A program made the translations under genes and the position numbers. From the NCBI GenBank assembly GCA_026388655.1, contig JAPLJI010000059.1:1-36681 (forward strand): a DNA stretch of 36,681 nt, given 5' to 3'. This DNA is from Pseudomonadota bacterium. GTDB lineage: Bacteria; Desulfobacterota; JAPLJL01. Positions 13,285 through 35,799 of the stretch are shown here, one piece after another. Position 1 is the stretch's first letter. Each line of letters starts with the position of its first letter. The notes under the pieces were generated by a model that did not search any database, was not told where the DNA came from, and worked only from the letters and a program-made list of their open reading frames with translations.

Positions 13285-13320
13285 GTTGGTAACTTGCCGG
13301 GCGAGACGCCCAGCCTCCTG

Positions 13321-13376: not shown

Positions 13377-13383
13377 TCACTCT

Positions 13384-18582: not shown

Positions 18583-18706
18583 GTTTCCTCCTCAGGTCAA
18601 AAGATAAAAAGTTTCGGGTTTCGAGTTTCTAGTTTCGAGTTTTTAATCTGGAAATTAGGGTTTGTTGTTGGCGATTTAAGGTGATGACAATATTCATAAC
18701 CGTTGC

Positions 18707-20653: not shown

Positions 20654-21664
20654 TCATTGTTTTTTCCCGCCCTTTTTGGATTTTCTGTTTTTCCCGATCT
20701 TTTTGACGGCCCGTTTGGCCGGGGCGGCTTTTTTCCGCGGGACGGCAATTTTTCTACCCGCCGCTTTCTCTTTTTCCCGCAGAAGTTCTTTCAACGCTTT
20801 CGGAATATCGGAATATACCTCCACCACCTTGACCCCGGCCTGCTGGAACAGGCGGGTTTTGTCCCTGGTCGCGCCCGAGCCGGGCCGCACGATCACGGAG
20901 GCATGGCCGAAACGCATCCCCGGCATGTTGTCCACGAACTTGCCCCCGAAAAAGGCTACTACCGGCTTGGTGAAGTGCCCGGGGATCCACTCGGCCAGGA
21001 CATCCTCCTTGGTCCCGCCGGGCTCGCAGAACAATACCATCGCGTGGGTTTCGGGGTCCTGCTCGAAAAGCGGGAAGAGATCCAGGTAGGTCGAGCCTAC
21101 TACCGAGTCACCCCCCATCCCGATCGCGGTGCTGATTCCCATCCCGGCGTTGGAAACGAGGTTGGCCACTTCCGTACACATCCCGCCGCTCCGGGAAATC
21201 ACCCCGATGTGTCCGGGCCGGAAAGCCCGCTCCGGGTTGTTACCACCCAGGAATCCGAGTTTGCTCCGCTTCGCCGGGCTGATCACGCCGGGGGAATTGG
21301 GACCGATAATCTTTACTCCTTTCAGGTCGGCATAAGCCACCATTTCAATCACGTCCCGCTTGGGGATCCGCTCGGTCAGGCAGGCGATCGGGGAAAGACC
21401 GCAGTCCGCCGCCTCCATCACGGCGTCCTTGGCGAAAGCCGGCGGGACGGAGACCACCGCGGCGTTGGCCTTCTGCTTTTCCACCGCTTCCTTGACCGTA
21501 TCGAAAACCGGGATCCCGTGCACCGTCTGCCCCTGCTTCCCGGGGGTCACCCCGGCCACCACCTTCGACCCGTAATCCATCATGTCCTTGGTGAAGGTCG
21601 CCGCTTCCCGGCCGGTGATGCCCTGCACGAGAATCCGGGTTCTGTCATCTATCAATACTGCCAT
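20654..21664 (-). CDS. SucD-like acyl-CoA ligase (ADP-forming), alpha subunit
   Basis: 336 residues from ATG 21664, which has CGGAGG six bases upstream; the frame is open 14 codons further but without support. The CoA-binding Rossmann part (QGITGREA, GVTPGKQGQTVHGIPVFDTV) and the ligase part with phospho-His254 (RFGHASVIV) match succinyl-CoA synthetase alpha. The GHAGA motif is changed to GHASV. A Lys/Arg-rich tail (about 297-336, PRKKAAPAKRAVKK and on) is an addition not found in most SucD. It would interconvert an acyl-CoA and free acid with ADP to ATP or the reverse. Succinate, malate or another dicarboxylate are possible substrates. A three-copy structured repeat lies 33 nt upstream. Confidence 0.87.
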   Translation of the reverse strand: MAVLIDDRTRILVQGITGREAATFTKDMMDYGSKVVAGVTPGKQGQTVHGIPVFDTVKEAVEKQKANAAVVSVPPAFAKDAVMEAADCGLSPIACLTERIPKRDVIEMVAYADLKGVKIIGPNSPGVISPAKRSKLGFLGGNNPERAFRPGHIGVISRSGGMCTEVANLVSNAGMGISTAIGMGGDSVVGSTYLDLFPLFEQDPETHAMVLFCEPGGTKEDVLAEWIPGHFTKPVVAFFGGKFVDNMPGMRFGHASVIVRPGSGATRDKTRLFQQAGVKVVEVYSDIPKALKELLREKEKAAGRKIAVPRKKAAPAKRAVKKIGKNRKSKKGGKKQ

Positions 21665-21696
21665 GATCAGCCTCCGTATTTCGTTAATCGTCTTAC

Positions 21697-21789
21697 GGTT
21701 GCGCAACTCGTCTCGTTCATAGGAAACGTTTTTCGTCTTGGTTTAAACCCCCCAACCGATTGACGCAACCGAAACGAGCCGCGCAAACC
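21697..21789 (-). repeat. Structured 90-nt element, copy C (upstream of the sucD-like gene)
   Basis: Read on the plus strand, the outer arms are GGTTGCGCAACTCG (21697-21710) and CGAGCCGCGCAAACC (21775-21789), pairing CTCG/CGAG, GCGC/GCGC and GGTT/AACC. The inner block GGAAACGTTTTTCG is shared with copies A (30451-30538) and B (35676-35762). It is the most divergent copy. It fills the gap between the SucC-like and SucD-like genes. Confidence 0.6.
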
Positions 21790-21805
21790 CAACCGTTACC
21801 TCCGC

Positions 21806-23002
21806 CTAACTTTTCCCCATTTCCACGACGTATTTCGCCGCTTCATCCATCGTGTGTGCTCGTTCGAAGTACTTGATCCCGTATTTATTGAGAATCTTGA
21901 ACCCCTCGTCTTCCCAGGCCCCCGGCACTCGGAAGACCACCGGGAATTTCTTCGGGTCGATTCCCCGATTCAGCATCCCCTTGATCACCCCCCGGGCCAC
22001 CAGGTCCACCCGGGTGTTGGAAAGCACGTTGGTGATTACGGCCAGGCGCTTGACCCCCGGTTTGGAAAGGATGAGCTCGGTCAGGAGCTGGACCTTCTTC
22101 ACCGTCGGGTTTCCGCCGATTTCGCAGTAATTCGCCGGCTTTCCCCCGTATTTTAGGATCGCGTCGAACACGGTCAGGCTCGCCCCGCCTCCCCCGATGA
22201 TCAGGCCGGTGTCGCCCTCGAATTCCACCACCCGCCCGGCCACGCCGCGGTGGTCCACCCGGTCGATCTCCGCCCCTTTCCTTTCCAACTCGGTAGGCTC
22301 CCGGCCCCGCTCCTCCCGGGGGAAGATCCCGAACGATTCCAGTTCCTTCTGGCGGAAAAGCGCGTCGTCATCAATCTCCACCCGGCAATCCGCCGCCAGG
22401 TAGGAACCGTTTTTGGTTTTAACCAGGGGGTTGATCTCGGCCACGCTGGCGTCGAATTTCTGCGTCAGGCCGTAAAGCCGGCTCACGATATTGGAAAGCG
22501 CGCCCAGCCCTTTATCCGCAGCCCCCAGGTGCTTGGCCAGCTCCTTGGCCCGAAAGCCAGGAACCCCAATAAAAGGGTCGACATGAAACCGGGCGAAGCC
22601 GGCGCCGGGTTTCTGGGCAATCGCCTCCACCTCGACCCCGCCGGTTCTCCCGGCCAGGAGGATCATCCGCTTCTTGATCTCGTCAATCGTGATTCCCAGG
22701 TACATTTCCTCGATAATCTCCAGTTTCTTTTCAACCAAAACCTTTTCCACCTTCCGGTCCCGGATCTTGCCGGCCAGCATTTCGCGGGTAAGCCTCTCCG
22801 CCTCTTCGGGATCCCGGGCGAACTTGACCCCGCCGGCTTTGCCCCTTCCGCCGAGAAGGATCTGGGCCTTGATCACCACCTCGCCCTTAAGATCCCGGGC
22901 TACCTCCCGGGCCGCCTCCGGGGAATCCACCATTTTCCCCGCCGGGATCGGGATCCCCACCTTCTGGGCCAGGATCTTTCCCTCGTATTCATAAAGACGC
23001 AT
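21806..23002 (-). CDS. SucC-like acyl-CoA ligase (ADP-forming), beta subunit (ATP-grasp)
   Basis: 398 residues. It opens with MRLYEYEGKILAQKVGIPIP. ATP-grasp features include VIKAQILLGGRGKAGGVKFA, EINPLV and the C-terminal ligase domain with GGGGASLTVFDAI and GGNPTVKKVQLL. CGGAGG precedes ATG 23002. It pairs with the downstream SucD-like subunit to make the heteromeric ADP-forming ligase. In a catabolic operon such an enzyme could conserve energy as ATP from an acyl-CoA or activate the substrate acid. Whether it is the TCA-cycle succinyl-CoA synthetase or a specialised paralogue cannot be told from the sequence. Confidence 0.9.
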   Translation of the reverse strand: MRLYEYEGKILAQKVGIPIPAGKMVDSPEAAREVARDLKGEVVIKAQILLGGRGKAGGVKFARDPEEAERLTREMLAGKIRDRKVEKVLVEKKLEIIEEMYLGITIDEIKKRMILLAGRTGGVEVEAIAQKPGAGFARFHVDPFIGVPGFRAKELAKHLGAADKGLGALSNIVSRLYGLTQKFDASVAEINPLVKTKNGSYLAADCRVEIDDDALFRQKELESFGIFPREERGREPTELERKGAEIDRVDHRGVAGRVVEFEGDTGLIIGGGGASLTVFDAILKYGGKPANYCEIGGNPTVKKVQLLTELILSKPGVKRLAVITNVLSNTRVDLVARGVIKGMLNRGIDPKKFPVVFRVPGAWEDEGFKILNKYGIKYFERAHTMDEAAKYVVEMGKS

Positions 23003-23211
23003 GGTTTACCTCCGCTTTTTTCCTGATTTGCTTTACGCTACACGCTACTTACCATTCATTCCACGTTATCTCGATGCCAATGCTATATCAAAAAGGGATT
23101 AAAAATGGAAGTCCATTTAAAACAGCTTATAGCGTATAGAATATAGCATATAGCTTATAAGCTGATGGTCCAAAAATAATAATATAAATTTTTGCGACAA
23201 AGGAAGAAGTT

Positions 23212-23368
23212 CTATCTGCTATCTGCTATCTGCTATCTGCTATCTGCTATCTGCTATCTGCTATCTGCTATCTGCTATCTGCTATCTGCTATCTGCTATC
23301 TGCTATCTGCTATCTGCTATCTGCTATCTTCTGCTATCTGCTATCTGCTATCTGCTATCTGCTATCTG
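23212..23368. repeat. CTATCTG heptamer array, 22 units
   Basis: Sixteen perfect 7-bp units (23212-23323), one 10-bp variant CTATCTTCTG (23324-23333), then five perfect units (23334-23368). It overlaps the last codons of the GRE gene, encoding QQIADSR and the stop. The rest of the 345-bp gap (23003-23211) has AT-rich ATAGC/TATAG-type repeats around 23130-23165 and no gene. Confidence 0.97.
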
Positions 23369-25873
23369 CTGTGCGGTATTTGCCCGCGAAACCCTCTGGA
23401 TTATTTCATCCTGGGCTTCTTTGGTGAGATCGGTGAAATAAGCGCAGTAGCCGGCCACGCGGACGGTGAGCCAGCGGAATTTATCGGGGTCTTTCTGGGC
23501 GTCCCGGAGAACGGCCTCGTTTAAGACATTAAATTGAACCTGCATCCCCCCGAGCTTGAAGTAGGTCCGAAGCAGGGAGGCAAACAGGCTCCCGTTATTC
23601 CCGGAGGAAAAAACCAGAGGATCGAGTCCCATCGTTAGGTTGGACCCGTTGGCGGCCTCGGTAAAATCAATCGCGGCCACCGAGTGTAGGAAGGCGGTCG
23701 GCCCTTTCCGGGTCCCGGCGGCGGACGGGGAAATCCCGAGCGTAAGCGGCTCCCCCGCCCCCCTTCCCGAAGGCAGGGCCCCGGTCCATTTCCCAAAGGG
23801 AATATGGCAGGTCACGCTGTAATATCCCGGCGTGTAAAGTCCGCCCCGCGGATTCCGGTGTTTTTTCACCTCCCGGGCGTAAATCTGAAAAACCTCGTTG
23901 GCGTATTTCTCCGCCAGGCCCTCGTCATCGCCATACTTGGAGACCCGGTTGGTAAGGTAGGCTTTCAGGTCATGATCTCCGGCAAAATCCTCCCTCAGCG
24001 CTTTTAGCAGCGCCTCCATGGTCAGCCGCTTCTGCTGGAACACCACCTCATCTATCGCCGTCAGGGCATCGGCCACCGAACCGACCCCCACCCCCTGGAC
24101 GCCGGTGAAATCATACCGGGCTCCGCCGGAGGTGACATCCTTTTTTTTCTCGATTGTGTCCTGGATCAGGGCGGACAGAAGCGGCGAGGGAAAATATTCC
24201 TTATGGGCGGCGGAAAGCACGTTGGTTCCCCGGACCATCTGGCGAACCAGGTAGGAAACCTGCTCGGTGAAGGCCTTCAGCACGTCTGCCATTGAGCCGA
24301 AGCTTTCCGCCGGGCCGGTCTCGGGACCGATTTTCTGCTTGAGCATCGGGCTGCAACCATTATGCAGGGCAAGATCCAGGCAAAGCCCGAGGTTCAAAAG
24401 CGCCGCGTCGGTGGACCCGAAGGATCTGCCCTGGGGGTTGGGTTCGACGCAACCCAGGGGGGCGTAGTCCCGGGCGTCTTCGAGGCTCGTTCCCACTTTC
24501 ATCATGGCCGGGATGATCACCTCGTCGTTGTAAATCGAGGGATGCGGGCATCCGTTCGCGATGTTGGTTTCAATGGCGCGGAGATAATCCGGGGGGCTAT
24601 CCTGATTAACCCGGGCGAAAAGGTTGGGCTGGTGGGTGTTTACCTCGCGGATGGATTCGAGGATCAGGTAGGTGAGATCGTTGGTGGCGTCCTTACCCTC
24701 CCGATCCACCCCGCCGATCACCGCCCCCTGGCTGGTCATCAGCCCGCTGAAATACTGGTTGAAGAGCTCCGGAAACAGCGGCGGGAAGCTCGACATCTTG
24801 ACCCAGAGGCACTGGAGAAGCTCCTTGGCTTTTTCCCGGGTCAACCGGCCCTCGTCAATATCCTTCCGGTAAAGCGGATAGAGATACTGGTCCACCCGGC
24901 CCAGCGAGATGGATTCCTCGTAATTCTCATGGTGGAGCGCAACCTGGGTTAACCAGATCGCCTGCAGGGCTTCAGGAAAGGTGCGGGCGGGGTTTCGCGG
25001 CGCGTTCTTCAGGTTCTCGGCCATGGTTTCCAGCTCGGCCTTCCGGTCCGGATTATTTTCTTTCTCCGCCAGCGCTTCCGCTTCCCGGGAATACCTTTCC
25101 GCGAATTCCATTACCCCATTGACGGCGATAATCACCGATTCCAGGAATATTCTTTCCTGGTGATACTCGGTTTCCTTGAGTTTTTCCTCGGCACACTCCC
25201 AGACCCACCCGAAACCTTTTTCCACCACCCTCTGGTAATCCGGGGTCACGTGCGAGATCCCGGCGAACTCGGTCAAAACCATAACCCCCTCCAGGGCGAA
25301 AAGTCGGAAGGGGGTAAAACCGATCGGCCTCTTCTTCAGGGAATCCAAATTTACCGACGCCAGGTCCAGGAGTTTCCTTCTCCAGGAAACCGGCATCCTC
25401 CGGAGCGCTTCCACGCCCGCCTTGATCGCCCCGGGCGCGAGCCCCCCGCGTTTTTTATCCCTCAAAATTATTGAGATCGCTCGGTCCGCGACCGTCCGGC
25501 CCAGCCAGAAGGGAAAAATATCCTTCTCCAGCTCCCGGGCTTCCTCTTCCGTCAGGACAAAAGGATTGTCTTTACGCAAATGGATCTTCCGGAGCTCGGG
25601 CCAGAGGGCAACGCTGTCAAACTCGGGGAAAAGCAGCGCCCCCATTTTCTTCTCGGTCATCGCCCCGGCGATCAGCTCGCCGGGGTAGATCTTGACCGGG
25701 ATATGGTTCAGGGCATACCGGACCGCCTCGGCCCGGAGGAGCGGCGGCTCGAGATACTGGTTGGACTGAAAATACCGGGTGACCCACCGCGCCCGCTCGA
25801 GGCTGATGGGCCGGGGGCTGAGATAAAGGTCCTGCTTTAAGCTTTCAATCCGCGGGGTGGGCATATTTATCAT
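23348..25873 (-). CDS. Glycyl radical enzyme, eliminase-type (PFL2-like), substrate unknown
   Basis: 841 residues. The radical loop is RVAGYCAYF with Gly808 near the C-terminus; the thiyl site is Cys475 with Glu477 in GCVEP. The Cys-x-Glu pair is found in glycerol and propanediol dehydratases, choline TMA-lyase, hydroxyproline dehydratase and isethionate lyase, and argues against pyruvate formate-lyase. Other landmarks: SHVTPDY (207-213), ALHHENYEESISLGRVDQY (312-330), and GGLYTPGYYSVTCHIPFGKW. Position 810 is Cys where Ser is common. The residues that set substrate choice do not let me assign one. The last seven residues come from the heptamer array. Start: ATG 25873 or ATG 25864, neither with a Shine-Dalgarno. 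Activase at 26748-27659. The enzyme would be oxygen-sensitive. Confidence 0.92.
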   Translation of the reverse strand: MINMPTPRIESLKQDLYLSPRPISLERARWVTRYFQSNQYLEPPLLRAEAVRYALNHIPVKIYPGELIAGAMTEKKMGALLFPEFDSVALWPELRKIHLRKDNPFVLTEEEARELEKDIFPFWLGRTVADRAISIILRDKKRGGLAPGAIKAGVEALRRMPVSWRRKLLDLASVNLDSLKKRPIGFTPFRLFALEGVMVLTEFAGISHVTPDYQRVVEKGFGWVWECAEEKLKETEYHQERIFLESVIIAVNGVMEFAERYSREAEALAEKENNPDRKAELETMAENLKNAPRNPARTFPEALQAIWLTQVALHHENYEESISLGRVDQYLYPLYRKDIDEGRLTREKAKELLQCLWVKMSSFPPLFPELFNQYFSGLMTSQGAVIGGVDREGKDATNDLTYLILESIREVNTHQPNLFARVNQDSPPDYLRAIETNIANGCPHPSIYNDEVIIPAMMKVGTSLEDARDYAPLGCVEPNPQGRSFGSTDAALLNLGLCLDLALHNGCSPMLKQKIGPETGPAESFGSMADVLKAFTEQVSYLVRQMVRGTNVLSAAHKEYFPSPLLSALIQDTIEKKKDVTSGGARYDFTGVQGVGVGSVADALTAIDEVVFQQKRLTMEALLKALREDFAGDHDLKAYLTNRVSKYGDDEGLAEKYANEVFQIYAREVKKHRNPRGGLYTPGYYSVTCHIPFGKWTGALPSGRGAGEPLTLGISPSAAGTRKGPTAFLHSVAAIDFTEAANGSNLTMGLDPLVFSSGNNGSLFASLLRTYFKLGGMQVQFNVLNEAVLRDAQKDPDKFRWLTVRVAGYCAYFTDLTKEAQDEIIQRVSRANTAQQIADSR

Positions 25874-25945
25874 GTGATCAGTTTATCGTAGATGGCATGG
25901 AGATAATTTTAACATAAAATAAAAAACCTCAGATTAACCTTAAAT

Positions 25946-25972
25946 AAAAAAACCCCTCTTGGAAAAGAGGGG
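25946..25972 (-). terminator. Intrinsic terminator between the small gene and the GRE
   Basis: On the minus strand CCCCTCTT and AAGAGGGG form a hairpin (25953-25972) followed by seven T (25946-25952). It lies downstream of the small gene at 26106 and upstream of the GRE start, so the GRE either has its own promoter in 25874-25945 or depends on read-through. Confidence 0.8.
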
Positions 25973-26010
25973 TAGAGGGAGAGAAACAGAAGGCAGAAAA
26001 GAAAAGGAAG

Positions 26011-26092
26011 GTTGTTGGGTTGTTGGGTTGCTTGGTGGCTAGGTGGTTGGAAAAATGAAAAGAAAGGTTGTTAGGTTGCTCGATGGTTAGAA
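26011..26092. repeat. GGTTGTTGG-type degenerate tandem repeat
   Basis: GGTTGTTGGGTTGTTGGGTT and later GGTTGTTAGGTTGCTCGATGG between purine-rich spacers. It is low-complexity spacer between the small gene and the terminator. Confidence 0.5.
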
Positions 26093-26105
26093 AAAGAAAA
26101 ATTCA

Positions 26106-26288
26106 TTAGGCGTTTCCTTTCAGCCCGGTTTCCAATCCGAGTGTAATGCTCTCAACCGGCACCTGCTCCTTGAATTTTTCTTCCTCCACGCTCTGGTCAA
26201 AACGATAAACCAGCTTTCCCAGGTGCCTGCTCATAACAAAAATTACCTTTGGTTTCTTGTCCCCGGTTTTATCGTTCATTTTCAGCAT
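26106..26288 (-). CDS. Small 60-residue protein of unknown function, GRE-associated
   Basis: The start is ATG 26288 because AAGGAG lies six bases before it; the frame is open to 26327 without support. The product has a Lys-rich N-terminus (MLKMNDKTGDKKPK), a short hydrophobic strand VIFVMSRHLGKLVYRF, then an acidic/amphipathic stretch ending in TGLKGNA. It has no cysteine, so it is not like the Fe-S-binding small subunits of benzylsuccinate synthase. I do not recognise the family. A sigma-54-type promoter lies 53 nt upstream and a terminator downstream, so it looks like a separately controlled single-gene transcript between the activase and the GRE. A regulator-binding, chaperone-like or enzyme-accessory role is speculation. 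Confidence 0.7.
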   Translation of the reverse strand: MLKMNDKTGDKKPKVIFVMSRHLGKLVYRFDQSVEEEKFKEQVPVESITLGLETGLKGNA

Positions 26289-26340
26289 TTTCTTCTCCTT
26301 TTTATTATCGCAAAGATTAAATTTCACATAATTTTAAATA

Positions 26341-26356
26341 TGCAAGTTTTGTTCCA
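26341..26356 (-). promoter_or_regulatory. Sigma-54 (RpoN) promoter, TGGAAC-N5-TTGCA
   Basis: On the minus strand TGGAACAAAACTTGCA has the -24 GG and -12 GC at exactly the right spacing and differs from TGGCAC-N5-TTGCA at one base. The start of transcription would be near 26330, giving a 42-nt leader with a good Shine-Dalgarno before ATG 26288. Confidence 0.65.
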
Positions 26357-26443
26357 AAGTTTTTTTTCAAAATACAGCTGTCTCGGTTTGCAATATTTTT
26401 AAGTAATATTAAATAGTTAGCAAATAAGTATGAAAATATTTCG

Positions 26444-26469
26444 ACCTTTTCAACAAATATTTAAAAGGT
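26444..26469. promoter_or_regulatory. Inverted repeat ACCTTTT...AAAAGGT, possible activator site
   Basis: 7-bp arms (26444-26450 and 26463-26469) with a 12-nt centre, about 115-140 nt upstream of the predicted sigma-54 start, the usual distance for an enhancer-binding protein. The rest of the AT-rich stretch 26357-26600 holds no gene; a 60-codon frame at 26461-26643 has no start signal. Confidence 0.35.
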
Positions 26470-26643
26470 AAAATTACTTAAGGTAATGTCAAAAATTTGA
26501 GCATCAATGAACACATATTCCAGGATGTGGGAAAAAATGGACCAAGAGATCAAGCGTCCGAGGCGTTCAAAATAAAATGTAGGGGCCGATCCCCGATCGA
26601 CCCCAAGAAGGTGCGTTCGGGAAACATGAAAATCCCCCTTCAT

Positions 26644-26731
26644 CCCCCTTTTTTATAAAGGGGGAAATTTAAAAACCCCTCTTTAGAAAAGAGGGGCGGT
26701 CTCCAACCCGTAGGTCTACGACCCGGAGGGG
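26644..26731. repeat. Hairpin and palindrome cluster downstream of the activase
   Basis: CCCCCTTT/AAAGGGGG hairpin (26644-26664), the terminator hairpin (26676-26696), and a CTCC...CCCGTAGG...CCCGGAGG palindrome (26700-26731) of the family found in cysS. GGGGCCGATCCCCGATCGAC (26582-26601) is another intergenic repeat type. Confidence 0.55.
26671..26696 (-). terminator. Intrinsic terminator after the GRE activase
   Basis: On the minus strand CCCCTCTT/AAGAGGGG (26676-26696) is followed by TTTTT (26671-26675), 52 nt after the activase stop. It is nearly the same hairpin as at 25953-25972. Confidence 0.72.
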
Positions 26732-26747
26732 GGAGATTTGAAAAAGG

Positions 26748-27659
26748 TTAAATCACCAGGGCCGTGAAGCCAGCGGAGAGAAAAACCCGGCGGATCTGCT
26801 CGATTTCTCCACTGCTGGGGGGAGAGATTCTTTTAAAAGGCGCGGATTCCCCAATCGGCCCTCGCTTGCTCTCCCCTAACGAATGATAGGGCAGGAGATG
26901 CACCGTATCGAGTGATAAGGCCTTGAGTATCCTGAAAATTCCTTCCAGGTTGCTCGTCTTCATCGTGATGCCCGGGACCAGTGGCACCCGGGGAATCACT
27001 AGGATATGCTCGGAAACCATCCGGGCCAGATTCTCCAGGATTTTTTTATTGCTTTTCCCCGTAAATTCAACATGACTTGGTTCATCCATGATCTTGAGAT
27101 CGAAAAAGACGCAATCGAGGCTTTTTAAGAATCCGGAGACCTCCTCGTAATCGAAGAATCCGCAGGTCTCCATCGCGACTTTGAAACCCGATTCTTTGCA
27201 GAGTTGAATGAAAGGCCCGACAAACGCGTATTGCAGGGTGGGCTCGCCGCCGGAAAGGGTTATGCCTCCCCCCGAATCTTCAAAAAAAGCCCCGTCTTTT
27301 CCAACCTTGGCCAGTAACTCCCGGGGCGTATACCATCTTCCCACGGTTTTGATTGATTCATAGCTGCAGACCTCCACACATTTGAAGCAAGCCGTGCATT
27401 TCTTTCTGTCGATCAGTTCCTCGACATCAATATCCAGGCACTTTTCCGGGCAAACCGGAACGCAATCCCCGCAGCGGATGCACTTGCTGTGATAATAGGC
27501 AATCTCGGGGCGCGGTTTGATTGATTCCGGGTTCTGACACCAGTGGCAATGGAGGGGACAGCCTTTGAAAAAAACCACCGTCCTGATCCCCGGCCCGTCG
27601 TGGACGGAAAATCTCTGGATATTGAAGACCAGTCCGGAATCAGGATGGTTATATTTCAT
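26748..27659 (-). CDS. Glycyl radical enzyme activase (radical SAM)
   Basis: 303 residues. Radical SAM motif Cys34, Cys38, Cys41 in CPLHCHWC, preceded by FSVHDGPGIRTVVFFKG. A ferredoxin-like insert carries two more [4Fe-4S] sites: CIRCGDCVPVC (60-70) and CTACFKCVEVC (88-98), the arrangement seen in activases of dehydratase-type and decarboxylase-type GREs but absent from PflA. LSGGEPTLQ and METCGFF complete the SAM-binding core. It would abstract hydrogen from Gly808 of the GRE using SAM and reduced ferredoxin or flavodoxin. It is upstream of the GRE on the same strand but separated by two terminators and a sigma-54 promoter. No Shine-Dalgarno is clear before ATG 27659. Confidence 0.93.
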   Translation of the reverse strand: MKYNHPDSGLVFNIQRFSVHDGPGIRTVVFFKGCPLHCHWCQNPESIKPRPEIAYYHSKCIRCGDCVPVCPEKCLDIDVEELIDRKKCTACFKCVEVCSYESIKTVGRWYTPRELLAKVGKDGAFFEDSGGGITLSGGEPTLQYAFVGPFIQLCKESGFKVAMETCGFFDYEEVSGFLKSLDCVFFDLKIMDEPSHVEFTGKSNKKILENLARMVSEHILVIPRVPLVPGITMKTSNLEGIFRILKALSLDTVHLLPYHSLGESKRGPIGESAPFKRISPPSSGEIEQIRRVFLSAGFTALVI

Positions 27660-27765
27660 TAATATGAGCCGCGACTAATCAGGGGTCTTTCCCCTAGCCG
27701 TCAGGGGGCATCATATCCCATAGCTGTCCAAATTATTTTTTTTCACCCTCACCCTTTCCCTCTCC

Positions 27766-27936
27766 CCTCGCGTGCCCCGTCAAGGGCGGGGAGGGAAAGG
27801 GTTGGGCCTCCGGCTCCGCTTCCAGCCCGTAGGGCTTACAGGCCGGAGGGTAGGGCTTACAGGCCGGCTTCCTGCCCGTAGGGGCCTCCAGCCCGGAGGG
27901 AGGGTAGGAGCCTACGGCTCGGAGAGGAGAGGGGGC
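27766..27936. repeat. Array of GC-rich palindromic repeats
   Basis: Within the 379-bp gap 27660-28038. GTGCCCCGTCAAGGGCGGGG (27771-27790) is followed by several copies of CCTCCGGCTCCG, CCCGTAGGGCTTACAGGCC, CGTAGGGGCCTCCAGCCCGG and GAGCCTACGGCTCGG. The stretch 27809-27853 is nearly identical to 4165-4211. No gene is seen; open frames here translate the repeats. Confidence 0.75.
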
Positions 27937-28038
27937 CAAATCAATGATTTTCAAATTCAAGTCTCAAAGTCTGTTTTCCCTCGGAGGATACAATCCAATT
28001 TGGACACGCATGATCATATCCGTAGTTACAGTCACCGG

Positions 28039-29226
28039 TTATTTCTTTTTTCCCGGGTATATCGGCGACATTTCCCGGAGCTTCTGGATTATCCCGGGAA
28101 GTGCCTCGAGCACCAGATCGACTTCTTCTTCGGTATTTTCCCGTCCCAGCGAGAAGCGGATGCTCCCCCGGGCCAGTTCCGGCGAAACCCCCATGGCCTT
28201 CAATACGTGGGAGGGGTCAAACGATCGCGAGGTGCAGGCCGATCCGCTCGAAGCGGCAATTCCCCGGAGATCAAGATTTAACAGGATGGCCTCACCTTCA
28301 ATGTAGGAAAAACTCACGTTGGTAAGCCCCGGGATTCTCTTCTCCGGATGACCGTTGAAAGATATGTCTTCGATTTTTTGTTTCAACCCCTCCTCCAGGC
28401 GTTTCTGCAGCCGGCGGAGCCGGAGTGAATTCGCCTCAAAATCGCGCGCGGAGATCTCCAGGGCCTTCGCCAGGCCCACTATCCCGGCTACGTTCTCGGT
28501 CCCGGAACGGAGATTCAATTCCTGGCTGCCGCCGTGGATCAGGTGGGGCATCTTCGTCCCCTTCCGGATAAAAAGCAACCCGATTCCCTTGGGACCGTAA
28601 AACTTGTGGGCGGATATGGAAAGCAAATCCACGGGAAGTTTCCGCAAATCCACGGGGATTTTACCCATCGCCTGGACCGCGTCGGTATGTAAAACGATGT
28701 TCTTTCCCCGTAATTTTTCGGCGATTTCCGCAACCGGCTGGATGGTTCCCACCTCGTTATTGGCCATCATGATCGAAACCAGAAATGTCCGCGAAGTCAG
28801 AGTTTCGGCGAGCGCTTCCGGATCCACGATCCCGAAACGATCGACCCCGAGATAGGTCACCTGGTATCCTCGCTTTTCCAGGATCTCCGCCGGGTGCAGG
28901 ATCGCGTGATGCTCAATCTGGGAGGTGACCAGATGATTGCGCTTCCCGTCCGGCCGGTGGGATTGGGACTCCGCCTCGGCCGGGCCGAAAAGCGCCCAGT
29001 TATCGCTCTCGGTTCCTCCGCTGGTAAAAACAATCTCCTCCGGCCGGGCTCCAACCAGCCCCGCCACCTTTTCCCGGGCGCCCTCGACCGCCTGGCGGGC
29101 TTCCTGGCCGAACCAGTGGATGCTGGAAGGATTGCCAAAAACCTCCCCGAGGAACGGAAGCATGGCCTCACGCACCTCCGGATGAACCCGGGTCGTGGCG
29201 CTGTGATCAAGGTAAATTCGTTCCAT
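28039..29226 (-). CDS. Cysteine desulfurase, NifS/IscS family
   Basis: 395 residues. PLP lysine Lys208 in SISAHKFYGPKG, and catalytic Cys331 in SSGSACTSRSFDPSHVL. The N-terminal YLDHSATTRVHPEV and GTESDNWAL are typical. It converts cysteine to alanine and leaves a persulfide for Fe-S clusters and tRNA thiolation. The order mnmA then desulfurase on one strand suggests it is the sulfur donor for MnmA; Fe-S assembly is also likely since no other desulfurase is in the window, but no scaffold IscU is adjacent. A 9-bp tandem repeat fills the gap to mnmA. Calling it iscS or nifS would be guesswork. Confidence 0.93.
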   Translation of the reverse strand: MERIYLDHSATTRVHPEVREAMLPFLGEVFGNPSSIHWFGQEARQAVEGAREKVAGLVGARPEEIVFTSGGTESDNWALFGPAEAESQSHRPDGKRNHLVTSQIEHHAILHPAEILEKRGYQVTYLGVDRFGIVDPEALAETLTSRTFLVSIMMANNEVGTIQPVAEIAEKLRGKNIVLHTDAVQAMGKIPVDLRKLPVDLLSISAHKFYGPKGIGLLFIRKGTKMPHLIHGGSQELNLRSGTENVAGIVGLAKALEISARDFEANSLRLRRLQKRLEEGLKQKIEDISFNGHPEKRIPGLTNVSFSYIEGEAILLNLDLRGIAASSGSACTSRSFDPSHVLKAMGVSPELARGSIRFSLGRENTEEEVDLVLEALPGIIQKLREMSPIYPGKKK

Positions 29227-29241
29227 TTGGTTCCCTTAGTC

Positions 29242-29297
29242 TCTTTGGTTTCTTTAGTTTCTTTAGTTTCTTTAGTTTCTTTAGTTTCTTTAGTTAC
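29242..29297. repeat. 9-bp tandem repeat TTTAGTTTC
   Basis: About six near-perfect units, with degenerate units at both ends (CTTTGGTTTC, TTTAGTTACC), in the spacer between mnmA and the cysteine desulfurase gene. Confidence 0.88.
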
Positions 29298-29352
29298 CCT
29301 GGTTTTTATTACGCAATCTGCAATCTAAAATCCGCAATTGGAAAGTTCCGCA

Positions 29353-30426
29353 TTATTTAATGATCCCTCCCCCGATTACCTCCTCACCCCTGTAAAAGAC
29401 CGCGGACTGGCCGGGGGCGGCCGCCCGCTGTTTTTCCATGAACTCTATGTCGGCCCGGTCGACAAACCCCCGGATGACCGCTTCGACCGGGGCATGCTGG
29501 GAACGGATCTTGACCTGCCCGACAAACACGCCGGGGGAGCTATTCCTCCGGATCCAGTTGATTCCTTCCACCTGGATGAATTTCCGGCTCAGATCGCTCT
29601 CTTTTCCCACGACCAGCACGTTCTCTTCCGCCTTGATCCGGATCACGTAGTAAACCTCGGGGACCTTGAGTTTCAGGCGCCGCTTTTGACCGATGGTAAA
29701 GGCCGGCAGGCCTTCATGCTCGCCCAGCCGCTTTCCGGAAGTGTCCTGGATCGGCCCCGGGCGGAAAGCTTCCGGGCTCCGTTCCCGGACAAAACCGATA
29801 TAATCCTGGTCGGGCACGAAACAGATTTCCTGGCTTTCCGGCCGCTGGGCCGTCGCGAGCTTGTAGGAAACCGCCATTTGCCGGACCCGTCGTTTTTCGA
29901 ATTCTCCCAGGGGCATGAGCGTCCGGGCCAGGATTCTCTGGGTCATCGGCCAGAGAAAATAAGACTGGTCCTTGGCCGGATCCACCCCCCGCAAAAGCTC
30001 GTAAGCTCCCTCCTTTTGATCAAAAACAATCCGGGCGTAATGACCGGTGGCCAGGAAATCGGAATCGAGCTCGTCCAGTTTTTGAAACAGGCTTCCAAAC
30101 TTGATCAGCTGATTGCAACGGACACAGGGATTGGGGGTCCGGCCCCGGCCGTATTCAGAGATAAAATCCTGGACCACCACCTGGTCAAACTGCTGACGGA
30201 AATCCAAAACGTAATGCCGGATGCCGAGCTTATGGGCCACCCGCTCCGCGCTTTTTATCGCGTCCAGGCCGCAACAGGACGAAGCCGGAATTTTCTTGCC
30301 CTTTTCCACCCTGAGATCCAGGGTGACCCCGATTACCTCGAAGCCCTTCTCCTTCAAAAGGGCGGCGGCCACGGAGGAATCCACCCCCCCGCTCATCGCG
30401 ACGATGACTCGCTTTTTCTTAGACAT
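29353..30426 (-). CDS. mnmA: tRNA-specific 2-thiouridylase
   Basis: 357 residues. PP-loop SGGVDSS (12-18), Cys101 and Cys104 in NPCVRC, and Cys202 in SQEICFVPD, the catalytic pair being Cys101 and Cys202 by analogy with E. coli Cys102 and Cys199. GHYAR and DQSYFLW are further family motifs. It adenylates and thiolates U34 of tRNA for Glu, Gln and Lys. Cys51-Cys52 (SSCCGLDA) also occurs in some anaerobe homologues. It lies upstream of the cysteine desulfurase and downstream of larE. Structured element copy A lies 25 nt upstream of the start. Confidence 0.96.
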   Translation of the reverse strand: MSKKKRVIVAMSGGVDSSVAAALLKEKGFEVIGVTLDLRVEKGKKIPASSCCGLDAIKSAERVAHKLGIRHYVLDFRQQFDQVVVQDFISEYGRGRTPNPCVRCNQLIKFGSLFQKLDELDSDFLATGHYARIVFDQKEGAYELLRGVDPAKDQSYFLWPMTQRILARTLMPLGEFEKRRVRQMAVSYKLATAQRPESQEICFVPDQDYIGFVRERSPEAFRPGPIQDTSGKRLGEHEGLPAFTIGQKRRLKLKVPEVYYVIRIKAEENVLVVGKESDLSRKFIQVEGINWIRRNSSPGVFVGQVKIRSQHAPVEAVIRGFVDRADIEFMEKQRAAAPGQSAVFYRGEEVIGGGIIK

Positions 30427-30450
30427 AGATTGTTTCGTCCATTGTCCAAC

Positions 30451-30538
30451 GGTTACGAGGCCCGTTTCGGAAACGTCTTTCGGTTACGGATTTGTAATCC
30501 GACCGACGTAGCTCAGAGACAACCCGGGCTTCGAAACC
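30451..30538 (-). repeat. Structured 90-nt element, copy A (upstream of mnmA)
   Basis: Plus-strand arms GGTTACGAGGCCCG (30451-30464) and CGGGCTTCGAAACC (30525-30538) pair at 13 of 14 positions, counting one wobble. Inner parts: GTTTCGGAAACG (a small palindrome) and an inner hairpin CGGTTA...TAATCCG. Outside the arms TTGTC (about 30444-30448) can pair with GACAA (30518-30522). It is about 80 percent identical to copy B, with changes that keep pairing. Confidence 0.75.
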
Positions 30539-30626
30539 CTAACTTTAACTTTTCTGATTGGTCTTCATTCGTTAATCGTCAATCTGCAATCGTCAATTTG
30601 TTTGCTTTCCATTCCGCAATCTTTTT

Positions 30627-31433
30627 CTAACCACCTTTTAATTCCTCGTTGAGGCTTCCCACCCGGTAACCATCCAGGTCGACTGAAACATGGGTATATC
30701 CAAGCTTCTTCAGGTCTCCGGAAATTTTTTTCCTGATTTTCAAGTCCAACAATCTTCCGATCTCTCCCGGCATAACCTCGATCCGGGCGGTCTTGCCGTG
30801 ATGGCGGACGCGGACCTGCCGGAAGCCTAGTCTTTTCAACGCTTTCTCCGCCCGGGCAATCATCCCTAAAGCCGCCGGGGTGATCCGGTCTCCATAAGGA
30901 ACCCGGGAAGCCAGGCAGGCCAGGGCCGGTTTATCCCAGGTGGAAAGACCAAGTTTCCGGGAAGCCCGACGGATTTCCTCTTTCCCCAGTTCGGCCTCCA
31001 GAAGCGGAGATCGCACCCGGAACTCCCGGGCGGCTTTCTCTCCGGGCCGCCGGTCTCTCAGGTCGTCCCGGTTCGAACCGTCGGCAATCCAGCGGAGTCC
31101 CTCCCGCCTGGCGATTTTCTGGAGTTCTCCGAAAAGCTCACGCTTGCAGTGATAGCATCGGTCGGGAGGATTCTGGAGAAACCGGGGATTTGATAGTTCG
31201 CGGGTTTTGATCACCCGGTGCCTGACCCGGAGCTTCCGGGCGAGCTTGCGGGCCGAGGCGAGTTCCTCCTTGGGGTAGGTGGAAGAAAAAGCGGTGACCG
31301 CCAGGACCCGGTCACCCAGGACCTCCCGCGCCACCCGGGCCAGAAAAGTGCTGTCCACCCCGCCGGAAAAAGCGACCAGGACGCTTCCCATCCCCTTTAA
31401 TATTTTCCTGAGCTTTTTAATTTTTTCCTGCAT
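30627..31433 (-). CDS. larE: LarE-type ATP-dependent sulfur transferase
   Basis: 268 residues. PP-loop AFSGGVDSTF (21-30), CYHC (Cys93, Cys96) and Cys173 in KPALACLASRVPYG, the site of the sacrificial or cluster-binding cysteine in characterised LarE. LarE thiolates the pyridinium dicarboxylate precursor of the nickel-pincer nucleotide cofactor of lactate racemase and related enzymes. larB and larC are not in the window. Its place among sulfur-transfer genes fits a sulfur-using enzyme fed by the desulfurase. A general PP-loop sulfurtransferase is the alternative. Confidence 0.88.
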   Translation of the reverse strand: MQEKIKKLRKILKGMGSVLVAFSGGVDSTFLARVAREVLGDRVLAVTAFSSTYPKEELASARKLARKLRVRHRVIKTRELSNPRFLQNPPDRCYHCKRELFGELQKIARREGLRWIADGSNRDDLRDRRPGEKAAREFRVRSPLLEAELGKEEIRRASRKLGLSTWDKPALACLASRVPYGDRITPAALGMIARAEKALKRLGFRQVRVRHHGKTARIEVMPGEIGRLLDLKIRKKISGDLKKLGYTHVSVDLDGYRVGSLNEELKGG

Positions 31434-31511
31434 TAGTCCCGGTTTTTTAGCCTCTCACCTTTCCGCTCAACACCGACTCGACTTTTAAACTCGTAAGATT
31501 TTTTCTTTCTT

Positions 31512-31656
31512 GGGGGGCAGGTCTCGCTCCCCAAACAATGCGTGCGATCACGTAACCCCTTCCCGCCAGTGGCGGGACCGAGGGTCGGCTTAAAAGAGTT
31601 TGCGTGCCCCGCCAAAGGCGTGGGGGTCGTGAGGACCTACCCCCCGGCTATTTTTT
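31512..31656. other. Structured spacer element with long closing stem, strand unresolved
   Basis: The 319-bp gap 31434-31752 holds no gene. GGGGGGCAGGTC (31512-31523) pairs with GACCTACCCCCC (31634-31645) over 11 of 12 bases. Inside are hairpins CGTG/CACG (31541-31552), TCCCGCC/GGCGGGA (31561-31577), GACC/GGTC (31576-31586, alternative) and CCCCGCC-AAA-GGCGTGGGG (about 31607-31625). On the plus strand TTTTTT follows at 31651-31656. It may be a small RNA or a compound repeat; parts resemble the spacer at 27771-27790. Confidence 0.4.
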
Positions 31657-31752
31657 GAAAAAACACTACCCATGATTTATTGTACCTCTTACCTCTTACC
31701 TCTTGCCTTTAACCCTTCAGCTTTCACCCTTGACCTTTGACCTTCCTCCAGC

Positions 31753-32073
31753 TTACTTCGTTTCCTCGCGAATCCACTTCAAATAATCCGGATTCCCCGC
31801 AATGATCGACAGGGCGATGATCTCCGGGACCTCGTAGCTATGGCTCTGCTTCACCATTTCCACCACTTCCGGAAACAGGGAGGCCCGGGATTTGGCCATT
31901 AATAAAACCTCCGGGGTTGATTCCCGCTTTCCCTGCCACCAGAAATAGGATTTCACCCCTGGAATCACGTTTACGCAGGCGACCTTCCGCGCGGTTAAAA
32001 GGACATCCGCGATTTTATGGGCCTCTTCAATATTGGCGCTGGTGATATAAATCACAATTTCCTGGTCCGTCAT
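31753..32073 (-). CDS. cutA: CutA1 divalent-cation tolerance protein
   Basis: 106 residues, the usual length. Characteristic VYITSANIEEAHKIADVLLT-type opening, ACVNVIPGVKSYFWWQGK and HSYEVPEIIAL motifs. CutA1 is a very stable trimer with a ferredoxin-like fold; its role in metal tolerance is still debated. It is preceded by AAGGGG. It lies between the MOSC gene (about 43 nt upstream) and larE in the sulfur block; 319 bp of repeat-rich spacer separates it from larE. Confidence 0.95.
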   Translation of the reverse strand: MTDQEIVIYITSANIEEAHKIADVLLTARKVACVNVIPGVKSYFWWQGKRESTPEVLLMAKSRASLFPEVVEMVKQSHSYEVPEIIALSIIAGNPDYLKWIREETK

Positions 32074-32116
32074 GGCATTTTCCCCTTTTCCGTTTCCTTA
32101 ACTTTTTTTATTTCTT

Positions 32117-32590
32117 TCACTGTTTACTATTCACTTTTAACTTTTCACTTTTCACTATTTTAATCCGGTCCCCGGCGCTAACCCTCCCCCCCCGGATAAC
32201 CCGGGCGAAGATGCCTTCCCGGGGCATTATGCACTTCCCGGTCTCCTGCATAATCGCGCAACCGGCATGGCATTCTTTGCCGATCTGGGTAATCTCAAGC
32301 ACAATGTCTTTCCCGATGTGAAGCCGGGTGGAAACCGGCAGGGAGCAAAGGTTGATACCCTCGGTCGTCAGGTTTTCGGCGAAATCCCCGGGGCCCACGG
32401 CATAACCCAGTTTTTTCATTTTTTCTATGCTTTCCATGGCCAGGAGGCTCACCTGGCGATGGCCTTCCGGGCAGGCATGCGCATCCTCAACCAGGCCATG
32501 GTTCTCTCTCAGGACGCCTTCGGTCCCCGCCTCTTTCCGGGTTCCCTTCTTTTCACTTCGACAAACCGCCAGAACTTTAGGCATAGGCAT
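32117..32590 (-). CDS. MOSC-domain protein
   Basis: 157 residues. A small stand-alone MOSC domain with AVCRSEKKGTRK at the start, PGDFAENLTTEGI, and CHAGCAIMQETGKCIMPREG with Cys near the centre, as in many anaerobes. MOSC domains are linked to molybdenum cofactor sulfuration and other sulfur or metal transfer, fitting the neighbourhood of an E1-like ThiF protein, LarE and a desulfurase. The C-terminal KSEKLKVNSKQ runs into low-complexity spacer. Specific substrate unknown. Confidence 0.88.
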   Translation of the reverse strand: MPMPKVLAVCRSEKKGTRKEAGTEGVLRENHGLVEDAHACPEGHRQVSLLAMESIEKMKKLGYAVGPGDFAENLTTEGINLCSLPVSTRLHIGKDIVLEITQIGKECHAGCAIMQETGKCIMPREGIFARVIRGGRVSAGDRIKIVKSEKLKVNSKQ

Positions 32591-32657
32591 TTTTATATCA
32601 ATTGATCAATCGCCAATAACCAATAACTAAATTCCAAACTCGAAAGCATCATTAGCA

Positions 32658-32779
32658 ACGCTGAAGCCTTGCCCTAATTCTTTAGTTTCTGGTCTCTGGT
32701 TTCTGGTCTCTAGTTCAAAACTTTAAACCATTTTCTCTCTCTTATAACTCGAAACTAGAGACTAGAAACTCGAAACTGT
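32658..32779. repeat. Mini-palindrome and TTTCTGGTC / GAAACTAGAG repeat arms
   Basis: CGCTGAAGCCTTGCCCTAA (32658-32676) is a GTAG-type palindrome half. From about 32684 TTTCTGGTCTCTGGTTTCTG runs towards 32715, and GAAACTAGAGACTAGAAACTC at about 32751-32772 is its inverted counterpart. Together these fill the gap between the ThiF-like and MOSC genes. Confidence 0.5.
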
Positions 32780-32809
32780 TTTTAGCCATCCAACATTCCG
32801 GAATTCCCA

Positions 32810-33739
32810 TTATTTACCTTTGGCCCGGCTCCACCAGAACATCTCCAGGCGCTCGGAAACCTTTCCGAACGGACCCTGCAGCAGCTTCCACCAGAATCTC
32901 CTCTGCAGAATAAAAAGGGTGTTGAGATTAAGACCGTACAGACGCTGGACGGAAACCCCCTTCCGGGATACCCAATAATATCTCGGGGCGGACACCGCCT
33001 TTTCCTTGCCGGTCAAGAACTTGAGCGCCTCCCAGGCCCCGAGCGAAGAAGCCAGCCAGACCACCGGGGCGATCTGGGTCAGGGGCCGGCCCTCCTCGAT
33101 GAAATCCCGGTAATAATCCTTTTCCCAGCGGCCCTGGATCACGTAATTGTAGTAAGTGGCCAACTTATAGCGTTTTTCCGTAAAAATCTCCTTCAACCCC
33201 TCGTAATCCAGGCCCCGGGGGACGCCGTGAATCGATTCCGCCGAGGGCCCATCGGGCCTGATGATCGAAACGCAGGCCCATAAACCCGAGGGAACCACGA
33301 GGAGCGCCGTTTTCCCCATCTCCTGTACGCCCCGGAAGCAAAGCAGGCTGAAGGCAAAATCATCCGCGGCCGGGAAAACCAGGTCGGCACGCCGGGCCAG
33401 GATTAAAACCTCTTCCCGGGACAGGAGCCGGGGATGAACCTCCACCTCCGCCTCCGGGTTGATTTTCCGGAGATACTCACCGGCCGCTTCCGCCTTGTTC
33501 CGTCCCAGGGTATCGGTAAAGCAGAAGACCTGCCGGTTCATGTTGGTGGGTTCAAACCGGTCAAACTCGACCAGGATAAAATGGGAAACCCCGCTCCGGG
33601 CCAGGAGGGTGGCTACCGTCCCGCCCACACCCCCCAGGCCGATAATCAGGACGGTGGCTTTCCGGATTCTTTCCTGTTCCTCCGGTTGGAACAACCCCCG
33701 ATTCCTGGAAAAATATTCAAGGTAACTATCGGTCCCCAT
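32810..33739 (-). CDS. ThiF/HesA/MoeB-family E1-like adenylyltransferase
   Basis: 309 residues from ATG 33739; an in-frame TTG just before is less likely. ATP-binding GLGGVGG (35-41), the acidic FDRFEPTNMNRQ (60-71) and DTLGRNKAEAA are E1 signatures. The CxxC zinc pairs of MoeB/ThiF are not seen. From about residue 180 the chain has an unusual region, KRYKLATYYNYVIQGRWEKDYY, and a C-terminal Trp/Arg-rich tail (FWWKLLQG, MFWWSRAKGK) that could touch a membrane. It would adenylate a C-terminal glycine of a sulfur-carrier protein or a related substrate; no ThiS/MoaD-like gene is seen nearby. Its place between cysE and the MOSC gene supports sulfur-carrier chemistry. Confidence 0.87.
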   Translation of the reverse strand: MGTDSYLEYFSRNRGLFQPEEQERIRKATVLIIGLGGVGGTVATLLARSGVSHFILVEFDRFEPTNMNRQVFCFTDTLGRNKAEAAGEYLRKINPEAEVEVHPRLLSREEVLILARRADLVFPAADDFAFSLLCFRGVQEMGKTALLVVPSGLWACVSIIRPDGPSAESIHGVPRGLDYEGLKEIFTEKRYKLATYYNYVIQGRWEKDYYRDFIEEGRPLTQIAPVVWLASSLGAWEALKFLTGKEKAVSAPRYYWVSRKGVSVQRLYGLNLNTLFILQRRFWWKLLQGPFGKVSERLEMFWWSRAKGK

Positions 33740-33952
33740 CAATTCCCACCCGAAAACTCGAGGTCAAACTCAAATCCATGCGGAAAATTCCGCTCATTCA
33801 GTATATACCGAACGACTGATTTTAGAAAAATTTTTCGAGATCGGGAGATACAGTTTCAGGTCTTGAGTTTCGGGGGCTGGCTTTAAATTTTGAGGGTTAT
33901 TGTTTTCTGCTTGTCTATTGGTCATTGGCGCTTAGTCATCATCCAATCAGAA

Positions 33953-34621
33953 CTAAGGCTTGGGCTGGGCGCAGGAACCATCCTTGCCCTCCAATTTTCG
34001 GAGGCGTTCATCCAGTTTTCTCTGGTCGTCCATGATCACCCTCAAGGCGTCCGCCACCGGGTCCGGAAGGCTTCCATGATTCATTTCCTCGGCAATCCGG
34101 CGTTTTTCCTGCTTGTTCACCACCCGCCCGGGAACACCCACTACCGTGCATCCGGAAGGCGCCGATCGGATCACCACCGAGCCCGACCCGATCATAACAT
34201 CATCCCCGATCTCGATCGGGCCCAGGACGCAGGCGTTGGTCCCCACCACCACCCGGTTACCCAGGGTGGGATGTCGCTTCTTCTTCTCGGTGCTCACCCC
34301 GCCCAATACTACCCCCTTGAACATCACGCAGTCATTGCCGAGTTCGGCGGTCTCTCCGATCACGATTCCCATCCCATGATCGATGAAAAGCCGGCGCCCG
34401 ATCTCCGCCGCCGGATGAATCTCCACCCCGGTCAGAAACCGGCCGAGATGGGAAAGCACCCGGGCCGAGAACTTCAAGCCCCTTTCCCAGAGCCAGTGGG
34501 CTACCCGGTAAATCCAGATCGCCTGGAGGCCGGGATAGCAAATCACGATCTCCAGCCAGCCCCGGGCGGCCGGGTCCTTGGCCCGCGCCGCCTGAATATC
34601 TTCCCGAATCAGAGTTAACAT
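33953..34621 (-). CDS. cysE: Serine O-acetyltransferase
   Basis: 222 residues. Left-handed beta-helix hexapeptide repeats begin near GVEIHPAAEIGRRLFIDHGM (65-84) with His in FIDHGMGIVIGETAE, KGVVLGG and HPTLGNRVVVG. The length and short N-terminus match the EpsC-type CysE. It makes O-acetylserine from serine and acetyl-CoA, the acceptor used by CysK. Its start lies 14 nt after the cysK stop, so the two are certainly co-transcribed. The C-terminal 40 residues form a helical tail. Confidence 0.95.
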   Translation of the reverse strand: MLTLIREDIQAARAKDPAARGWLEIVICYPGLQAIWIYRVAHWLWERGLKFSARVLSHLGRFLTGVEIHPAAEIGRRLFIDHGMGIVIGETAELGNDCVMFKGVVLGGVSTEKKKRHPTLGNRVVVGTNACVLGPIEIGDDVMIGSGSVVIRSAPSGCTVVGVPGRVVNKQEKRRIAEEMNHGSLPDPVADALRVIMDDQRKLDERLRKLEGKDGSCAQPKP

Positions 34622-34635
34622 GCTGAGACCTTTCC

Positions 34636-35601
34636 CTAACCAACCACCCCGAAAAGGGCGGTAGAAAGATAACGTTCCCCGGTATCGGGCAGAATCACCA
34701 CAATCAGTCTGCCCCGATTCTCCGGCCTCCGTCCCACTTCGAGCGCCGCCCAGGCGGCGGCCCCGGATGATATCCCCGCCAGGATCCCTTCCTCCCGGGC
34801 CAGCCTCCGCGCCAGTTCCTCCGCGTCCTCGTTTTTCACCTTGATCACCTCGTCAATCAGGTCGGCGCGGAAGACCTCGGGGACAAATCCGGCCCCGATC
34901 CCCTGGATCCGGTGGGGGCCTGCTTTCCCGCCGGAGAGCACCGGCGAGGTCTCCGGTTCCACGGCCACCGCGCGCAGGGAAGGTTTCCTTTCCTTGAGCG
35001 CCTCGGCGATCCCGGTGATCGTTCCCCCGGTTCCTACCCCGGCGACCACGATCTCCACCCGTCCCTCCGTATCCCTCCAGATTTCCTCGGCCGTAGTCAG
35101 TCGGTGGATTTCGGGATTGGCCGGATTTTTAAATTGCATCGGTAGATAGGAATTCGGGATCTCTTTTTTCAATTCCTCGGCCTTTTTCACCGCCCCGGTC
35201 ATCCCTTCCAGGCCCGGGGTCAGGACCATCTCCGCCCCCAGGATCTTGAGGAGTTTTCTCCGCTCCATGCTCATGGTTTCGGGCATGGTCAGGATCAGGT
35301 GGTAGCCCCGGGCGGCGCAGACAAAAGCCAGGGCGATCCCGGTGTTGCCGCTGGTCGGCTCGATGACCACGGTATCCTGCTTGAGCAAGCCCTTTTCCTC
35401 GGCATCCAGGATCATCGCCACCCCGATCCGGTCCTTGATGCTGCCCAGGGGATTAAAGGATTCGAGCTTGGCCGCCACCTCCGCTCCCACTCCCAGGGTA
35501 ACCCGGTTAAGGCGGACGAGCGGGGTATTTCCAATCAGCTCGGTGGAATCCCGGGCGATGCCGCGATAGATATCTTTAATCTCAATCCCTTTATATTTCA
35601 T
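34636..35601 (-). CDS. cysK: Cysteine synthase A (O-acetylserine sulfhydrylase)
   Basis: 321 residues. PLP lysine Lys56 in [12 protein letters not shown], substrate loop TSGNTGIAL, and [15 protein letters not shown] for the phosphate. An N-terminal extension of about 12 residues ([14 protein letters not shown]) precedes the usual start. It makes cysteine from O-acetylserine and sulfide. AGGAG precedes ATG 35601. It is first structural gene after the Rrf2 regulator. Structured element copy B lies 75 nt upstream, and a GTAG mini-palindrome (35628-35650) lies between them. Confidence 0.96.
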
Positions 35602-35627
35602 TTTTATTCTCCTGCTCGCTTCTATTA

Positions 35628-35650
35628 CGCAAGCTAAAACTTGCGGCTAC
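35628..35650 (-). repeat. GTAG-type mini-palindrome
   Basis: On the minus strand GTAGCC then stem GCAAG/CTTGC around loop TTTTA. It has the same frame as the copies at 2485-2590 with a different stem sequence. Confidence 0.5.
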
Positions 35651-35675
35651 CATCGGTTTTCGTCTATCGTCCTTC

Positions 35676-35762
35676 GGTTACGCAGCCCGTTTCGGAAACG
35701 TTGTTCGGCTACGGATTTTTAGCCGACCGACGTAGCCCATAGACGACCCGGGCTTCGTAACC
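35676..35762 (-). repeat. Structured 90-nt element, copy B (upstream of cysK)
   Basis: Plus-strand arms GGTTACGCAGCCCG (35676-35689) and CGGGCTTCGTAACC (35749-35762) pair at 13 of 14 positions. An inner hairpin CGGCTA...TAGCCG (about 35706-35725) replaces CGGTTA...TAATCCG of copy A. Outside, TCGTC (about 35667-35671) can pair with GACGA (35742-35746), where copy A has TTGTC and GACAA. Confidence 0.75.
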
Positions 35763-35799
35763 CTAACCTTTGCCTTTTTTTCTTGCTACTCGCTACCTG

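Follow-up and report, generated by a model that had tools for sequence, protein, structure and literature searches.

A family of dispersed intergenic palindromes, probably ERIC-like mobile repeats, in uncultured deltaproteobacterial lineages

Three imperfect palindromes in the window, the whole stretch of 36,681 nucleotides that was analysed, belong to a dispersed repeat family that is best read as a new sequence family of interspersed palindromes of the ERIC/YPAL/REP type. Its members are very probably small, non-autonomous palindromic DNA repeats, presumably moved in trans, in the manner of ERIC, YPAL and REP sequences. The family fits the class of small non-autonomous or MITE-like palindromes (ERIC, YPAL, RUP and NEMIS), which are shorter than 200 bp, dispersed, multi-copy and intergenic and form a long stem-loop. 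It is absent from Rfam, which returned no match in the window at the gathering score (only a chance match for copy 3 and none for locus L018), and no published description of it was found in the literature searched. A well-delimited ERIC-like palindrome family is thereby added for uncultured deltaproteobacterial lineages. The case also serves as a caution that compensatory changes among dispersed palindromes can mimic an RNA family.

An earlier note on this DNA had described a structured element in three copies. All three are present at the positions given there, were confirmed as related by BLAST or by covariance-model matching, and are imperfect palindromes that form long hairpins. The genes around them are all encoded on the minus strand. 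Copy 1 (21677..21798, minus strand) occupies the spacer between a sucC-like ATP-grasp gene (21806..23002) and a sucD-like CoA ligase gene (20654..21664), with the arm GGTTGCGCAACTCGTCTCG at 21697..21715 and the opposite arm CGAAACGAGCCGCGCAAACC at 21770..21789. Copy 2 (30433..30549, plus strand) lies between a gene for a PP-loop protein (30627..31433) and mnmA (29353..30426), and its 5' and 3' outer arms span 30451..30464 and 30525..30538. Copy 3 (35658..35770, plus strand) separates an Rrf2-family regulator gene (35800..36240) from a cysK-like PLP enzyme gene (34636..35601). Its outer arms (35676..35689 and 35749..35762) enclose an inner hairpin (35704..35726) and, on the 3' side of the hairpin, a one-sided 7-nt bulge, CATAGAC (35738..35744), where the family consensus has GATNGAC.

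Copies 2 and 3 share 85% identity over 111 nt (BLAST, E 4e-29) and represent subfamily I, which carries CCCG/CGGG pairs. Copy 1 carries CTCG/CGAG pairs (subfamily II) and was matched by the covariance models with 77 bits (R1) and 84 bits (R2), at E values of 2e-16 to 1e-24, far better than chance would give; it was among the sequences used for the models, yet it aligns throughout with independent copies. It is alignable only as the reverse complement, its core being inverted relative to copies 2 and 3. On the plus strand, however, the outer flanks of copy 1 look like those of copies 2 and 3, so that its core seems to be flipped relative to the flanks; another copy (L013) is arranged in the same way. 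The hairpin energies of copies 2 and 3 were better than those of shuffled sequences (z -3.6 and -4.4, respectively), whereas that of copy 1 was not (z -1.3 on the plus and -1.6 on the minus strand). The hexamer CCTCCG bounds copy 1 on both sides (21671-21676 and 21799-21804) and occurs once in the empty spacer of the sister species G002, which may be chance.

The pair differences listed in the earlier note stood for the most part. The exchange of CCCG/CGGG for CTCG/CGAG is correct if the note's A, B and C denote the copies at 30451, 35676 and 21697 (copies 2, 3 and 1) and not the coordinate order, and the inner hairpin pairs CGGTTA/TAA of copy 2 and CGGCTA/TAG of copy 3 were verified. At the fifth outer pair, A/T in copy 3 and G/C in copy 1 proved right, but copy 2 has an A-A mismatch. 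The 'GGAAACGT' of copy 1, taken in the note for an inner block common to all three copies, is the complementary palindrome arm and not the homologous block.

Covariance models were built from 8 copies (R1) and from 22 copies (R2). Alignments of 22 and 47 copies gave the consensus hairpin GGTTGCG..GCTCGTTTCGGTTGNGTTNTACGGTTGCGG-TTTAAAA-CCGANNGACGTNGCC-GATNGAC-GAAACGAGC..GCGCAACC, with a core of approximately 95 nt and a length of approximately 130-135 nt including the outer arms. The 7-nt bulge GATNGAC is found on one side of the stem only (the 3' side), and many copies have an additional outer stem past a second 7-nt bulge, e.g. GATCAAC. An informal look at the copies revealed no obvious attC boxes (GTTRRRY/RYYYAAC) or cassette array.

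The covariance-model search that the earlier note had proposed identified approximately 30 distinct copies on both strands of the source genome (3.56 Mb, 194 contigs, 94% complete) with models R1 and R2, and more in relatives. The opposite strand of most copies was also matched, more weakly, because the element is a palindrome. Among 79 genomes of the phylum, including the source genome, two congeners and one member of another family (G068) contained many copies and three others a few, and 72 contained none. The congeners, the sister species G002 and G001, have approximately 20-27 copies each; the copies examined numbered 26 in G002, 20 in G001 and 19 in G068. A motif scan of 84,980 named species found the element in metagenome-assembled genomes labelled Deltaproteobacteria, Desulfobacterales, Proteobacteria or simply 'bacterium', mostly with several copies each, including STA_72, LacPavin MAG_56_8, CSMAG_2661 and AB_3033_Bin_63. 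The sole exception was one contig labelled Planctomycetota, which was not confirmed by the model at E 1e-6. The phages, plasmids and viral contigs searched contained no match to the element.

Genes were called by codon usage to analyze the context of 96 copies, none of which lies within a predicted gene. The copies were located in co-directional (68), convergent (18) and divergent (4) spacers or near contig edges (6); counted over 87 copies, 18 are in convergent spacers. The background of element-free spacers of at least 140 bp was 63 co-directional, 10 convergent and 14 divergent, and the balance of convergent and divergent spacers differed from it (p = 0.007). In the co-directional spacers of four genomes (n = 64), the core was oriented with the genes in 31 cases and against them in 33. 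The preceding stop codon was closer than the next start codon in 49 of these 64 cases (median distances of 41.5 nt to the stop and 80 nt to the start; p = 4e-6), which may partly be explained by the room that promoters and 5' leaders occupy. Many copies are found between the genes of probable operons, e.g. between sucC and sucD.

Comparison with the sister species G002 revealed turnover of sites. The mnmA-cysK region is syntenic there and encodes proteins that are 85-90% identical. Three spacers of G002 lack the element, those that precede mnmA and cysK and the one that separates sucC from sucD; the mnmA spacer contains a possible 20-nt remnant of an arm. Three further sites (L011, L013 and L030) are empty in G002 and two (L022 and L025) are common to both species, so that 6 of 8 compared sites are empty and 2 of 8 shared. 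These eight were the sites at hand and not a random sample, and the copy on contig C120 was left out as its left neighbour differs. The empty spacers are also compatible with loss of the element in G002. When the C19 locus was used as a DNA query, most matches were copies of the element itself. In a tree the copies from three species were intermixed, with no grouping by genome. The second of the two possibilities raised in the earlier note, a REP-like mobile palindrome, is supported by dispersal in several genomes, random core orientation, copies in convergent spacers and sister-species spacers that lack the element.

The other possibility was an unreported leader RNA family, that is, a structured cis-regulatory RNA, possibly with a pseudoknot, that controls the downstream genes. 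Long hairpins and some compensatory pairs would agree with it, as would the location of the window copies 25-75 nt before start codons. These distances are correct, but two copies sit nearer to the preceding stop, at approximately 17 nt (copy 1) and 38 nt (copy 3); copy 2, approximately 88 nt away from its stop, does not. A leader RNA is difficult to reconcile with the 31:33 core orientation and the 18 copies in convergent spacers, an outcome that the earlier note had itself named as refuting an RNA function, with a sucD copy that is inverted and belongs to the other subfamily, and with the lack of conservation before sucD, mnmA and cysK, whose upstream spacers are empty in the sister species. 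Covariation appeared weak. In 47 copies, evaluated at 40 pairs, the share of paired cells was 79.4%, barely more than the 78.5% of column shuffles. The covariation score of 0.156 lay above the shuffled value (0.136) and above the slid controls (no more than 0.078), whereas the 48 doubly changed cells compare with 28-55 in slid controls. Where a cell differs from the most frequent Watson-Crick pair (635 cells), the pair is broken in 388 cases, G-T in 184 and compensated in only 63, and about half of the compensated cells disappear when the subfamilies are treated apart. Compensated changes mainly separate the subfamilies and private changes mostly break pairs. The pseudoknot proposed from the TCGTC/GACGA pairs is not conserved, being present in only 6 of 47 copies, and Rfam is without a match. 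The leader RNA was rejected for its orientation, its context and the lack of positional conservation, and is highly improbable. A bidirectional terminator or a stabiliser of mRNA 3' ends that is under selection behind genes would account for the symmetrical hairpin, the closeness to preceding stops and the relative excess of convergent and deficit of divergent spacers. Such a role is nevertheless unlikely, as the stem is not followed by a T-tract in any of 47 copies, whichever strand is read, sites are mostly unshared between sister species, many copies lie inside probable operons such as sucC-sucD, and the pairs are mostly broken by private changes.

A special case of the preferred explanation is a REP or TIR element that is mobilised by the genome's own Y1 (RAYT/TIRYT) transposase. 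RAYT-type Y1_Tnp genes are indeed present, with seven in the source genome (L040-L046) and ten in three relatives. Two features suggest that one single strand may matter, namely the bulge on one side of the stem and, on one strand, the greater number of G-T than of A-C mismatches (140 versus 42); the G-T surplus is a weak hint, because the 3' arm is also more variable and contributes part of it. However, no full element and no R2 match was found beside the 17 Y1 loci of the four genomes: one weak, truncated match at the end of a Y1 locus was not reproduced with R2, and the copy on contig C191 lies more than 1 kb from its Y1 gene. No short stem with a neighbouring GTAG or CGTC tag was seen, and the element is several times the length of a REP. 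Mobilisation by these Y1 enzymes is therefore conceivable but doubtful. A further reading appears improbable, namely a lineage-specific hairpin that is mobile in single-stranded form, its strand being recognised by the conserved one-sided bulge, that flips its core within its flanks, and that also acts as an mRNA-stability module behind genes and as a favoured landing site for two other palindromic repeats.

The family as such is best explained by interspersed palindromes that move in trans. The copies are non-autonomous. Sister species have gained and lost them at different spacers, and the mover is presumably an enzyme that acts on the hairpin or on the inverted repeats. An autonomous version with long-spaced inverted arms was not found in the source genome, which does contain single arms that look like decayed or truncated copies. 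Direct repeats flanking 47 copies had a mean length of 5.85 nt compared to 5.58 nt in shuffled pairs; as no target site duplication was detected, the family is called ERIC-like and is not counted among the strictly defined MITEs. To our knowledge, such duplications are not universal, none being known for RPE, CIR and RU-3. Copies probably survive where they are least harmful, namely outside genes, mostly behind stop codons and seldom between divergent promoters. Where transcribed, they would place a long hairpin into intercistronic or 3' regions of mRNAs, which may alter mRNA stability case by case.

Several copies are themselves interrupted or extended by other repeats. Nested in the arm, either at an equivalent position or at the mirror-image one, a 34-nt palindrome (TCACCGCCTCTGGCGGGATTCCGCCAAAGGCGGA; GGCGGGATTCCGCC) occurs in nine copies from three species (L027, L030, L035, L038 and L237 in the source genome; L117, L118 and L120 in G002; L137 in G001). 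The repeat TCCTTCGACAGGCTCAGGACAGG or variants of it are inserted at one identical position in four G068 copies, with L150 and L152 of this genome among the carriers, and at other positions elsewhere. Either these composites multiplied as a whole, or insertions favour the arms of the palindrome. Together with the empty spacers, these nested insertions provide material for studying how repeats move without an identifiable transposase.

Further repeats were observed around the element and elsewhere in the window. Six copies (L101, L102, L107, L122, L123 and L127) have tandem CCAATNACCAAGC-like units in their 5' flanks and AATTAGAAATT-like units in their 3' flanks, which perhaps belong to a larger composite repeat. 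L232, L233, L235 and L236 are truncated copies of the element; a different repeat, which contains AAAATGCGATTGAATCCGTT and CCGATTCATCGGCGG palindromes, is joined to them or comes after them. Within the window, an array of approximately 24 tandem copies of the heptamer CTATCTG is located downstream of a large gene (23198-23384), and similar drift of short units is seen in other spacers (TTTAGTTTC at 29217-29306, CTGTTGGT at 13318-13381 and GTTTCGAGTTTCTAG at 18606-18641). A second dispersed palindromic family (GCCTCCGGCCCGTAGGGCCTACGGCCCGGAGGG) has several window copies in both orientations (4167-4353, 12233-12283 and 27807-27908).

Known repeats provide a frame for this family. ERIC sequences have TA termini and target duplications, and REPs are palindromes of 20-40 bp with an unpaired GTAG or CGTC tag, the RAYT gene being flanked by the repeat. 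The family described here differs from REPs in its size (approximately 95-135 bp), in the absence of either tag from the 22- and 47-copy alignments and in not lying beside Y1 transposases. It differs from ERIC in that neither TA termini nor target duplications were found and in its occurrence in a different phylum; the likeness to ERIC is one of architecture and context, and no sequence relation is claimed. Like ERIC (IRU, 127 bp), it consists of long imperfect palindromes of similar length that are intergenic and dispersed in tens of copies, that also occur between co-transcribed genes and for which a transposase is not known (PMC2229807). An autonomous parent is also unknown for most published small palindromic families (PMC2229807). 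YPAL (RU-2, 168 bp) of Yersinia is likewise palindromic, not A+T-rich and without TA termini, but has target duplications of 3-26 bp, of which none were detectable here; its mobility was demonstrated through empty and filled sites (PMC2229807). REPs and the TIR repeats of TIRYTs resemble the family as palindromes that are found behind genes and in convergent spacers and that show nesting (PMC3733652). Some REP and TIR families also lack an adjoining transposase, and nesting comparable to that of the element has been reported for REPs (PMC3733652).
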